A stretch of 64,000 nucleotides of DNA from Enorma massiliensis phI (GCF_000311845.1 NZ_HE978574.1:1401346-1465345); one strand, 5' to 3'; numbered from the stretch's first letter, positions 57,602 to 61,273 are shown. The notes: generated by a model not told the origin, from the sequence alone. Translations and numbers: made by a program.

Positions 57602-57728
57602 CAGCGCTCGCGCATCGCATGCCCCGTGTTGCCGGGCGGAATCTGGACGCCGCGTGCGCTGCCGGGCGTGTTTCATGGGGCGCTTCGAAACGCGCTGGAA
57701 ATATTCCCCGCGGCGCGCTCCGCTGTGC

Positions 57729-57734
57729 TATAGT
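57729..57734 (+). promoter_or_regulatory. Candidate -10 box of the Trp-leader operon
   Basis: TATAGT lies 56 bases before the leader-peptide start, which would give a leader of about 50 untranslated bases. No good -35 hexamer is seen at 17 bases. Confidence 0.4.
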
Positions 57735-57789
57735 GCGACGCAAGGTAGCTCGGCTACGAACTCTCGATTGACCGAAAGGAGCCGCCACC

Positions 57790-57861
57790 ATGATGTCCAT
57801 GCTCAACAACTCCCTCATGAACTGGTGGTGGCGTGATGCGAATACGGTCGGTCGACGGTAG
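57790..57861 (+). CDS. Tryptophan leader peptide controlling the ECF importer
   Basis: A 23-codon frame preceded by AAAGGAG (eight-base spacing) carries three consecutive Trp codons at positions 12-14 (57823-57831) and ends in TAG 30 bases before a Rho-independent terminator. This is the layout of ribosome-mediated tryptophan attenuators, such as actinobacterial trp leaders with NWWW. With ample charged tRNA-Trp the ribosome moves on and the terminator forms; on starvation it stalls and an alternative fold can form. The downstream genes encode an ECF importer with a TrpP-like S component, not trp biosynthesis. Confidence 0.88.
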   Translation: MMSMLNNSLMNWWWRDANTVGRR

Positions 57862-57890
57862 CTCCTGCGCCTTACCCATAGGTATCTAGC

Positions 57891-57920
57891 AAGGCCTCCG
57901 CTTCGACCGGGGGCCTTTTT
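57891..57920 (+). terminator. Attenuator (Rho-independent) of the Trp-leader operon
   Basis: AAGGCCTCCG and CCGGGGGCCTT make a stem of about nine pairs with a short loop, followed by TTTTT. CGACCG (57904-57909), which includes bases of its 3' arm, can instead pair with CGGTCG (57845-57850) at the end of the leader-peptide region, giving a competing antiterminator. Confidence 0.85.
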
Positions 57921-58023
57921 CGTATCACGCGCCTCAACGAACGCTCTCCGGGCGCCCGCCGCCAATGAGAGCAGCAACTCACTTTCACCTCCCCTCTTCC
58001 ATCAACAAGAAAGGTTGATCACC

Positions 58024-58593
58024 ATGCCTCAGAACAACTTCTCCCAGCCCCGCACCGTAACCGCCTCCGAGCGTGGCGGGCTTGACATCCGCAACCTCGT
58101 GCTGCTCGCCATCTTGCTGGCAGCCGGCTTCATCCTCAACATGACGGTCGGCAAGGCGCTTTCTGCCCTCACCATGGGCACGCTCAGCCCCGAGTTCATC
58201 ATCGCGGCGTTCTGCCTCGAGATCCTCATCGTCAGGCCCAAGCCCGCGCAGGCGCTCGTCATCGGACTCATCGCGGGCGCCGTCATCCAAATCTCGGCTT
58301 CGGTCAAGGGCCCGGACCTCATCGCCGAGCCTATCGCGGCCCTCGTTATGGCGCTCATCGTCGCAGCCGGCATGAAGGGCAAGGCCAAGGCGATCGTGCC
58401 CGTCCTCGGCACCTTCGTTACCACGACGCTCTCCGGTCTCATCTACGCCGTCATCGTCATCTATGCCCTCCGCACCGTCAACGCCACCCTCCTCATCATG
58501 CTCCCCGTCGTGCTGGGTACGGGCGTGGCCAACGCTATCATCGTGGGTGCGCTGTACCTGCCCATCAAGAAGGCGCTCAAGCTCGCTGACTAG
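58024..58593 (+). CDS. ECF transporter S component, TrpP-like (tryptophan), importer 2
   Basis: The 189-aa membrane protein has about six membrane segments and the compact TrpP-like pattern (FILNMTVGKALSALTMGTLS, VIGLIAGAVIQISAS, IAEPIAALVMALIV). The Trp-rich leader upstream supports tryptophan as substrate. It is the first structural gene of the operon, about 100 bases after the attenuator. GAAAGG precedes ATG 58024. A GC hairpin separates it from the ATPase gene. Confidence 0.82.
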   Translation: MPQNNFSQPRTVTASERGGLDIRNLVLLAILLAAGFILNMTVGKALSALTMGTLSPEFIIAAFCLEILIVRPKPAQALVIGLIAGAVIQISASVKGPDLIAEPIAALVMALIVAAGMKGKAKAIVPVLGTFVTTTLSGLIYAVIVIYALRTVNATLLIMLPVVLGTGVANAIIVGALYLPIKKALKLAD

Positions 58594-58602
58594 AAACCAT
58601 GT

Positions 58603-58630
58603 TCCGCCCCGGCCATGCAAACGGGGCGGA
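58603..58630 (+). other. Intra-operon hairpin between the S gene and the ATPase gene
   Basis: TCCGCCCC / GGGGCGGA, 8-bp perfect stem with a 12-nt loop, ten bases after the S gene stop. It probably protects the S-gene mRNA or reduces downstream transcription so that S exceeds the energising module. Confidence 0.55.
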
Positions 58631-58662
58631 CGAACGCCCAAAGGAAGGGGAACCGGCCCGCA

Positions 58663-60534
58663 ATGGACCCCATCATTCGCATCGATCATGTATCGTTCTC
58701 GTATGGCGAGGCAAGCGCTCGAGCGCTTGACGATGTCACGCTCAGCGTGAGCCCTGGAGACTTCCTCGGCATCATCGGACCATCCGGCGCTGGCAAAACC
58801 ACACTCGCCTCGGCTATGTCCGGGGCGATCCCCCATCACTACACCGGCCCGCTCTTCGGCAGCGTCCTCGTTGACGGCAAGGATACCTGCGCGGTCACCT
58901 TAACCGATATCTCCCAGGTCGTGGGGAGCGTATTGCAGGACATCGACACGCAGATGGTGGCCTCCGTCGTAGAAGACGAGATGCTCTTCGGGCTCGAGAA
59001 CTTCGGCGTTCCGCACAGCCAAATCGAGGAGCGCGTCATTGATGCACTTGAAACCGTGGGCATCGCCGATTTGCGCGAGCGCGATATCGCCACGCTATCC
59101 GGCGGGCAGAAGCAGAAGGTTGCCATCGCCGCCATCCTCGCCCTTCGGCCGCGCGTCCTCGTTCTCGACGAGCCCACGGCAGCGCTCGACCCCGCCAGCT
59201 CGCGCATGGTTTTCGAGACGCTGCGCAGCATCAATCGGGAGCTCGGCGTCACCGTGGTCATCATCGAGCAAAAGGTCGCGCTTCTCTCTGAATATGCGAG
59301 CCGCATCGCCGTCATGCAGGGTGGACGCATAGCGCTCGAGGGCACGCCGAGCGAGGTGTTCTCCCATAGCGCTGAGCTGCGGAGCATCGGCGTCGACAGC
59401 CCGCGCGTAACGCGCATCTCGAACAGCCTTGCCGCGCGCGGGCTCATAGAGGCCGGCGAGCCCTGCCTGAACGTTCGGGAGGCCTCGCTGCTCATCCAGA
59501 ACCTGTGCAAAGCCTCCTCCCCCGCCCCTAGAGCCGCGGCGACCGCAGGCGCCGACCGCGCAATTGCCACCGCCCATGCGACCGCAGGCGCCGACCGCGC
59601 TGCCGCTGACGCCCATGCGACCGCAGGCGCCGACCGCTCCACCATCGCGAGCCCCGGCGAGTGCGGCATGGCAGAGAGCCCGCGCCGGCCCGCCGTGAAA
59701 CCAGGGGCCTCGCCCGTCGTGCGTCTGCGAGACGTTACCTACACCTACCCTGGCGGCGGCGCCTCGGTGCGCCACCTTAATCTTGAGGTCTATCCCGGCG
59801 AATTCGTAGGGCTCGTAGGTCAAAACGGCGCAGGCAAGACGACGGCGACCAAGCTGGTGAACGGTCTTCTCAAGCCGTCCTCGGGAACGGTCGAGGTGGC
59901 GGGGCTCGACACGCGCACGGCGAGGACGAGCCAGATCGCGCGCCACGCGGCGACGCTCTTCCAGAACCCAGACCATCAGATCTGCCGCGACACGGTGCTC
60001 GATGAGGTCGCGTTCGGCCTTGAGCTGGGCGGCGTGGACGCCGAGACGGCCCGGGAACGGGCGCGCGCAGTGGCAGAGGACTTCGGCTTGCCGCTCGGCG
60101 AGGTGCCCTTCTCGCTTTCGCGTGGACAGCGCCAAATGGTTGCGCTTGCCTCGGTCGTAGTCCTCGAGCCTGAGCTCGTGATCCTAGATGAACCGACGAG
60201 CGGCCTCGACTATCGCGAGTGCATGACGGTCATGGAAACCGTGCGCCGCATGGCGGACCGCGGGAGCGCCGTCATCATGGTCTGCCACGACATGGAGGTC
60301 GTCTCGGATTTTGCCGAGCGCCTCGTCGTCATGGCCGATGGCGAGATCGCCGCAGCCGGCCCCACGCACGACCTCTTCGCCGATGAGAGCCTCATGAAGC
60401 GAGCGAGCATGAGGCCCCCTCAGGTGGTTGAGCTCGCGAACGAGCTTGCGCACACGGTTTCGCCCCGGTTCCTCGGGCTCTACGAGGTCTTAGATGTCGT
60501 CTCATGCACCGAGGAGCTGGTTCTTCATGGTTAA
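58663..60534 (+). CDS. ECF transporter ATPase, fused EcfA-EcfA', importer 2
   Basis: The 623-aa protein joins two ABC ATPases. The N half has Walker A GPSGAGKTT (39-47), LSGGQKQKV and LVLDEPTAALD, but its switch His is Gln (VIIEQKVALL, residue 203). The C half has GQNGAGKTT (386-394), the altered signature LSRGQ (485-489), VILDEPTSGLD and an intact His (VMVCHDMEVV). The linker (about 290-350) contains three copies of a 13-residue repeat, ATAGADRA-type. It overlaps ecfT by eight bases. ATG 58663 is preceded by AAGGAAGGGG at rather long spacing. Confidence 0.93.
   Translation: MDPIIRIDHVSFSYGEASARALDDVTLSVSPGDFLGIIGPSGAGKTTLASAMSGAIPHHYTGPLFGSVLVDGKDTCAVTLTDISQVVGSVLQDIDTQMVASVVEDEMLFGLENFGVPHSQIEERVIDALETVGIADLRERDIATLSGGQKQKVAIAAILALRPRVLVLDEPTAALDPASSRMVFETLRSINRELGVTVVIIEQKVALLSEYASRIAVMQGGRIALEGTPSEVFSHSAELRSIGVDSPRVTRISNSLAARGLIEAGEPCLNVREASLLIQNLCKASSPAPRAAATAGADRAIATAHATAGADRAAADAHATAGADRSTIASPGECGMAESPRRPAVKPGASPVVRLRDVTYTYPGGGASVRHLNLEVYPGEFVGLVGQNGAGKTTATKLVNGLLKPSSGTVEVAGLDTRTARTSQIARHAATLFQNPDHQICRDTVLDEVAFGLELGGVDAETARERARAVAEDFGLPLGEVPFSLSRGQRQMVALASVVVLEPELVILDEPTSGLDYRECMTVMETVRRMADRGSAVIMVCHDMEVVSDFAERLVVMADGEIAAAGPTHDLFADESLMKRASMRPPQVVELANELAHTVSPRFLGLYEVLDVVSCTEELVLHG
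59541..59637 (+). repeat. 39-nt tandem repeat in the EcfA-EcfA' linker
   Basis: GACCGCAGGCGCCGACCGC recurs exactly at 59541, 59580 and 59619, a period of 39 bases or 13 codons, so the frame is kept. It encodes the flexible Ala-rich linker between the two ATPase halves and could vary in copy number between strains. Confidence 0.9.
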
Positions 60535-61273
60535 TGTCATCGATTACGTACCGGGCACCACGCTGCTCCACCGGCTGAATCCGGTCACCAAGATCGCGCT
60601 TGCCGTCGCGCTCATCGCTTCGTCGCTCACGGCGGATTCCCCCATCGTGCTCGTCTCGCTGCTTGCGCTCACGCTCGCTGCGAGCGCCTATGCGCACGTC
60701 ATGCGCCAGGTACGGTCGTTTCTCAAACTGCTTATTCCGCTTTCCATCATCATGTTCGTCATGCAGGCGATCTTCGTGCGCTCGGGAACGCCCGTTTTCC
60801 TCTCCATAACAAATGAGGGCCTCATGCTCGGCCTCATGGTATGCCTGCGCCTTCTCTGCCTTGCGCTGCCGCTCATCCCCGCGCTCGTAACCACCAAGCT
60901 CACCGACCTCGCGAACGCCTGCGTCGAGGTGCTGCACGTACCGTACCAATATGCATTCACCTTTACCACGGCGCTTCGCTTCGTCCCGGTATTCAGCCAG
61001 GAGATGAACGCCATCATGGAAGCGCAGACCGCGCGCGGCGTGGAGTACGACACGCCCAACCCTCTCAAGAAGCTTCGCCTCATGCTGCCGCTCTGCATTC
61101 CGCTGCTCATATCGAGCGTGGGCAAGACGGATGCCACAGCGCTCGCGGCAGAGCAGCGCGGCTTCTACCTGAGAACCCGTGCTTCCGCGTACAAGCGCTA
61201 CCCCCTTGCCGGGCGCGATATCGCCGCGCTTGCGCTCTGCGTGGGGCTTATCGTTCTAGGAATAGCGTACTAG
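60527..61273 (+). CDS. ECF transporter transmembrane (T) component, importer 2
   Basis: The 248-aa product has the EcfT layout: YVPGTTLLHRLNPVTKIALA at its start, about six membrane segments and the coupling motifs EAQTARGVEYD and AAEQRGFYLRTRAS with the ARG-type sequences. GAGGAG lies inside the end of the ATPase gene before ATG 60527, an eight-base overlap. Last gene of the Trp-leader operon. Confidence 0.92.
   Translation: MVNVIDYVPGTTLLHRLNPVTKIALAVALIASSLTADSPIVLVSLLALTLAASAYAHVMRQVRSFLKLLIPLSIIMFVMQAIFVRSGTPVFLSITNEGLMLGLMVCLRLLCLALPLIPALVTTKLTDLANACVEVLHVPYQYAFTFTTALRFVPVFSQEMNAIMEAQTARGVEYDTPNPLKKLRLMLPLCIPLLISSVGKTDATALAAEQRGFYLRTRASAYKRYPLAGRDIAALALCVGLIVLGIAY

Follow-up and report, generated by a model that had tools for sequence, protein, structure and literature searches.

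Introduction

The leader described here shares with the trpL attenuator of Escherichia coli (RF00513) the logic of strands 1 to 4, but it departs from trpL as commonly described in that strand 2 lies inside the ORF, before the stop, and in that the stop is reached 12 codons after the first Trp codon. In Actinobacteria, Trp attenuators have been described for trp operons and for trpS (Seliverstov et al., 2005; PMC1262725). Those of Corynebacterium and Streptomyces resemble ours in having two to three adjacent Trp codons, a GC-rich terminator and a competing antiterminator, as well as in their actinobacterial hosts. They precede trp biosynthesis operons or trpS, whereas the attenuators reported below precede an ECF importer, trpB2 or an SNF transporter and, unlike them, are mostly found in genomes without the Trp pathway.

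In Firmicutes, regulation by TRAP is known for Trp transport genes. TrpP of Bacillus subtilis (PF17099), a tryptophan ECF S component, is TRAP-regulated and works with a shared ECF module, whereas the S protein studied here, which can be placed in the same Pfam family through its relatives, has its own fused EcfAA' and EcfT and lies behind a probable attenuator. B. subtilis TrpP has been listed among ECF S proteins (PMC11487621). The trpXYZ genes of Streptococcus suis carry a Trp T-box (PMC9382623), likewise an RNA leader through which Trp uptake is controlled by tRNA-Trp charging, but the T-box binds the tRNA directly whereas the sensor here would be the translating ribosome. Attenuators have been predicted for a histidine transporter (PMC9413887), and we found no description of leader-peptide attenuation of an ECF importer in the open-access literature. 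The locus analysed here lies in a stretch of 64,000 nucleotides from Enorma massiliensis phI (hereafter the window).

A Trp Leader in Front of an ECF Operon

A preliminary description of the window had proposed that a leader peptide with three adjacent Trp codons and a good ribosome site, followed by a Rho-independent terminator and a competing pairing, controls the genes of a TrpP-like ECF importer. Its coordinates and description proved correct to within a few bases (Table 1). The Trp codons and the ribosome site are read directly in the sequence and are in frame in 46/46 relatives, and the terminator was recovered both by a terminator scan and as a conserved pairing in relatives. The attenuator reading is thus upheld by conservation, but it had omitted a hairpin, P1, and two further targets, trpB2 and a transporter of the SNF family.

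Table 1. Features of the attenuator and of the ECF operon in the window.
Feature	Coordinates	Strand	Basis and remarks
Extended -10 element TGCTATAGT	57726..57734	+	sequence reading
Leader ribosome-binding site (SD), AAGGAG	57776..57781	+	sequence; SD and ATG share the frame of WWW in all 46 distinct relatives
Leader ORF, MMSMLNNSLMNWWWRDANTVGRR	57790..57861	+	23 codons; ATG at 57790, stop TAG at 57859-57861
Sensor, three adjacent Trp codons UGG-UGG-UGG	57823..57831	+	invariant alignment columns in relatives
P1 hairpin, 5' arm	57830..57835	+	overlaps third Trp codon and Arg codon; partner 57866-57871
Antiterminator strand 2	57848..57863	+	3' part of leader ORF, stop included; core 57848-57855
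P1 hairpin, 3' arm	57866..57871	+	non-coding, directly 3' of leader stop
Rho-independent terminator	57891..57920	+	terminator scan; hairpin 57891-57917, U-tract 57916-57920
Antiterminator strand 3	57893..57910	+	terminator 5' arm and loop; core 57903-57910
S component, TrpP-like	58024..58593	+	189 aa; TrpP matches of relatives, fold of AlphaFold model
Fused EcfA-EcfA' ATPase	58663..60534	+	two ABC domains in one ORF; TIGR04520 E 8e-135, TIGR04521 E 4.5e-125
EcfT transmembrane component, CbiQ family	60527..61273	+	PF02361 E 3e-26; start codon by inspection

An alternative ATG of the leader ORF is present at 57793. A generic sigma-70 scan returned no full promoter; 39 of 46 distinct relatives have a -10-like box about 76-106 nt 5' of the Trp codons, and transcription of the leader probably starts near 57741. 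The terminator, which stands before the structural ECF genes, reads AAGGCCTCCG-CTTCGAC-CGGGGGCCTT followed by five T.

Conservation Across the Coriobacteriia

A search for relatives of the S protein gave matches in 40 of the 60 related genomes and at 33 loci of named Coriobacteriia, Collinsella, Enorma, Olsenella, Tractidigestivibacter, Slackia and Parafannyhessea among them. The preliminary description had named a lack of conservation of the Trp codons upstream of orthologues as one observation that would refute it. Across the Coriobacteriia, wherever the DNA upstream of the S gene could be read (61 loci), an in-frame WWW leader and a terminator were present; this count leaves out two loci beginning at a contig end. 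At one locus (L061) the matched S gene is the second of a tandem pair and the WWW leader precedes the first.

The first SD and ATG fell in the WWW frame at all 46 distinct loci, and the leader core NWWWR...G(R/Q)x-stop was recovered in nearly all relatives read, mostly in the form ...NWWWR(D/G/N)...G(R/Q)x-stop. The stop followed the first W by 12 codons in 52 of the 58 ECF and trpB2 elements (the latter are presented below), a spacing that would be expected if a single strand has to be exposed by a ribosome at one position and hidden by a ribosome at another. The pattern TGG3 ... CCGRRRGSC occurred about once per genome of the window's family and was nearly absent from the reversed control. 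Outside the 61 loci, the leader of one genome (G007, locus L179) reads WAW instead of WWW and retains its terminator, one control codon having been naturally lost.

Competing Secondary Structures

The competing pairing originally proposed does exist, since CGGUCG at 57845-57850 can pair with CGACCG at 57904-57909. The repeat CGGTCGGTCGA permits a shifted register, however, and the pairing first proposed is the alternative register on the repeat CGGUCGGUCGA. In an alignment of 37 distinct sequences of relatives (A1), columns 23-26 are variable whereas columns 27-31 are nearly constant; we thus preferred the conserved register, shifted by 3-4 nt, which pairs 57848-57855 with 57903-57910 and is extended by 57856-57858 with 57898-57900 and 57861-57863 with 57893-57895. 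This core formed standard pairs in 93.2% of the cells of A1, and P1, in which GGCG(UGA) of the third Trp, Arg and Asp codons faces (UCA)CGCC 3' of the stop, was paired in 89.9%. Taken jointly, P1 and the core were paired in 91.7% of cells, compared to 31-46% when the partners were slid by 1-3 columns, and none of 500 shuffles reached their covariation score, a significance that the shuffles overstate because the sequences are related. In three relatives (L028, L057, and L060) the Arg codon CGN is replaced by a His codon CAN and the P1 partner is U instead of C; this change was read by hand, L057 and L060 being shifted in the automatic alignment. The terminator was 86.8% paired across relatives, with both sides changed in three pairs in the alignment test, and its pairing dropped when the partners were slid on the alignment.

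A ribosome was placed with its A site at the second Trp codon and only the RNA beyond its downstream edge was folded; each of the 46 distinct ECF leaders was then predicted to form the antiterminator, with a mean of 14.3 pairs. For a ribosome at the stop, strand 2 was covered by construction, so that the absence of the antiterminator in this state is no independent evidence. In the transcripts ending before strand 3, P1 averaged 5.7 pairs versus 2.9 with shuffled tails (46 leaders) and reached at least four pairs in 32 of the 46, while none formed in the window itself, where P1 is weak (two G-U pairs) and does not appear in the fold predicted for the window alone. At ribosome-free equilibrium the antiterminator was often predicted as well, so the off-state would depend on the kinetics of P1 or on a ribosome at the stop. 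The ribosome-free state is the least certain part of the model, since P1 of the window is unformed and other upstream pairings dominate its minimum free energy (MFE) fold. Two of the pairings in this fold, 57762-57775 with strand 2 and the ribosome-binding region with the Trp codons, were regarded on inspection as local to the window, the upstream sequence being variable among relatives.

Shuffle tests on single sequences gave moderate significance only for the antiterminator (median p 0.058 for the ECF leaders) because the composition of the strands by itself favors pairing. Since such tests are weak for GC-rich strands, it is the comparative tests that carry the argument.

The ECF Transporter and Its Probable Substrate

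The S, EcfA-EcfA' and EcfT genes expected downstream of the leader were confirmed by family matches and by the fold of S, except that EcfA and EcfA' form a single fused ORF, in which TIGR04520 and TIGR04521 each match two stretches. S, two EcfA ATPase domains and EcfT are therefore encoded together, as an ECF transporter with its own energizing module. The linker joining the two ATPase domains contains near-exact repeats (ATAGADR..ATAHATAGADR; 59541-59640).

The S protein of the window had no match in Pfam, and its assignment as TrpP-like, already made in the preliminary description, holds via intermediate relatives: 26 of the 33 members of the family match TrpP (PF17099), the sole family matched, with a best E of 3.7e-7. 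The curated TrpP cut-off was exceeded by the relatives in two genomes (G038 and G005), the direct orthologues remaining below it (E 1.7e-4 to 4.6e-4). A sequence search of the PDB for close relatives of S returned none. The AlphaFold model of S (pLDDT 80.7) was compared with the PDB using Foldseek, and the eleven best matches were all ECF S proteins (RibU, ThiT, PanT, biotin S and others), mostly with a probability of about 1 and a TM of about 0.5-0.6, but with E of only 0.03-0.6. These similarities, together with the leader, suggest that tryptophan is the substrate of the importer. Tandem S genes, about 45% identical, were observed in six genomes (G005 at locus L105, G011, G020, G021, G029, and G034); the second copy, which matches TrpP better in G005, may differ in substrate.

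Indole-glycerol-phosphate synthase (IGPS) was detected in none of 37 genomes of the window's family, and no TrpB exceeded the cut-off in the 23 family genomes searched, the control searches being positive in all 14 reference genomes. The members of this family thus appear to be Trp auxotrophs. Many hosts are also without trpB2 and, as they apparently cannot make Trp from chorismate, they would need Trp itself.

Further Targets of the Attenuator

In the window genome, the sole other match to the attenuator pattern precedes trpB2, which encodes a TrpB-like PLP enzyme (NF009057/TIGR01415) with a predicted role in indole salvage. Its leader peptide, MTAIVNNANTLHLMQQAAAWWWNKRIPSLSD, and its strands, CGGAUUA and UAAUCCG, are unlike those of the ECF leader in sequence and repeat the same architecture. 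Native strand pairs reached -21.4 and -17.0 kcal/mol versus -15.5 and -14.0 kcal/mol for pairs swapped between the two classes, a gain of about 3-6 kcal/mol. The trpB2 attenuator is an independent second attenuator with differently sequenced, matching strands, and more copies were found in front of trpB2 in other genomes of the window's family and order. In one genome (G042) a single WWW leader serves trpB2 and then a fused S-EcfA gene; this fusion is a single ORF of 498 aa on the minus strand (L101:138-1634), downstream of trpB2.

A third type of target was found in G184, where a WWW leader (GWWWRCSHAVGRS) and a terminator (L199:194-300) lie upstream of the gene of an SNF-family transporter (504-1865; PF00209, E 2.9e-49, SNF/neurotransmitter:sodium symporter). 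The best PDB match of this transporter is 4us3, the structure of MhsT solved with bound tryptophan. The leader of G160 (L197) is as in G184, and neither genome had a match to S or TrpB2 there. We also looked for a leader or attenuator at trpS of the window genome and found none.

T-Boxes in Sister Lineages

In sister lineages without the WWW leader, a T-box often occupies its position: G045 and G053 have one upstream of the S homologue, and G039, G044, G049, and G058 have one upstream of trpB2. The specifier of these T-boxes is UGG, as read from cmscan alignments and, for G053 and G058, also by inspection; in G041, G045, and G047, UGG T-boxes occur 5' of genes for Trp biosynthesis as well. Both systems coexist in one genome, G053, where the S/ECF operon carries a UGG T-box and trpB2 a WWW attenuator (L103, L183). 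Since orthologous S and trpB2 genes carry UGG T-boxes elsewhere, the same genes would be served by two unrelated sensors of tRNA-Trp charging. In a trpB2 protein tree of 19 rows both regulator types were clustered, and a single origin of the WWW group is possible on this tree, with weak support (42/65). It seems likely that the tryptophan-acquisition regulon of Coriobacteriia (ECF-TrpP, TrpB2, and SNF) exchanged its sensor, T-boxes or ribosome-stalling attenuators being used according to lineage and sometimes both in one genome, and that the attenuator is a reusable module of largely fixed geometry.

Discussion

Computation established how the leader is built and how far it is conserved, which pairings compete, which genes are targeted and that a biosynthesis enzyme is missing. 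Very probably, the leader works as a transcription attenuator of the classical, ribosome-mediated kind: the charging of tRNA-Trp would be its signal, and the acquisition of tryptophan by auxotrophic hosts the process under its control. With ample charged tRNA-Trp, the ribosome would pass WWW, reach the stop 12 codons on and cover strand 2, so that strand 3 would pair with strand 4 to form the terminator and the ECF genes would stay silent. With uncharged tRNA-Trp, the ribosome would stall at WWW, its footprint lying over the 5' arm of P1 and leaving strand 2 free; strands 2 and 3 would then form the antiterminator and the polymerase would continue into S-EcfAA'-EcfT, whose products would import tryptophan. 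In the absence of a ribosome, P1, a candidate anti-antiterminator (1:2) hairpin formed before strand 3, probably holds strand 2 off strand 3. The response to Trp starvation and the direction of regulation are those suggested by the sequence, and an antiterminator free under the stalled ribosome and masked by a ribosome at the stop is a prediction of the folding model.

Could the leader instead be a TnaC-like arrest peptide, sensing free tryptophan in the ribosome rather than acting as a passive sensor of charging? The N before and the R after WWW are strongly conserved in ECF leaders, beyond what codon stalling needs, but trpB2 leaders retain WWW without these neighbors (AWWWN, AWWWT, and AWWWY), conservation 3' of WWW is accounted for by RNA pairing and the T-boxes on orthologous genes read tRNA charging, which makes such a peptide improbable. 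Somewhat less improbable, while still unlikely, is a genuine attenuator serving the import of a related molecule, such as indole, another aromatic amino acid or a Trp peptide. The similarity to TrpP is remote, some genomes have a tandem second S paralogue, and the co-regulated TrpB2 would use indole; against this, TrpP is the sole family matched, hosts that apparently cannot make Trp from chorismate, many of them devoid of trpB2, need Trp itself, and both the attenuator and the T-box read Trp.

The idea that the WWW ORF and the hairpin co-occur by chance, the operon being unregulated and the hairpin the ordinary terminator of the upstream gene, could draw on single-sequence pairings that are only moderately better than shuffles. 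It is already contradicted by the universal conservation, the frame, the recurrent spacing, the promoter box and the independent trpB2 copy, and we regard it as very improbable. Least credible of all is that a TRAP-like protein or a T-box senses Trp at this locus. Both are known on Trp transport genes of Firmicutes (for the T-box on trpXYZ, see PMC9382623), but the idea is already contradicted: a TRAP gene was found in 0/40 genomes, the two T-boxes of the window genome, with specifiers AUC and UUC, sit at other loci, and the ECF leader gave no convincing covariance match in Rfam, whether to a T-box, a riboswitch, Trp_leader (RF00513) or another family.

While the mechanism of a ribosome-mediated attenuator is known, there appears to be no earlier description of the set of genes targeted here, of the exchange with T-boxes or of the RNA family, which has no match in Rfam. 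A probable substrate and mode of control can now be assigned to an importer that otherwise lacks a name, in gut bacteria as common as Collinsella and its relatives, which appear unable to make tryptophan. Leader-peptide attenuation, classically associated with biosynthesis, could serve scavenging alone, and T-boxes beside attenuators on orthologous genes would offer a natural case of one RNA sensor replacing another. The competition for tryptophan and indole in the gut becomes testable. In the window genome itself, trpB2 contains an in-frame TAA (L100:2362-2364, minus strand; G000 contig C2, around 546862) and is uninterrupted in relatives, the TAA being either the mark of a recent pseudogene or a sequencing error.
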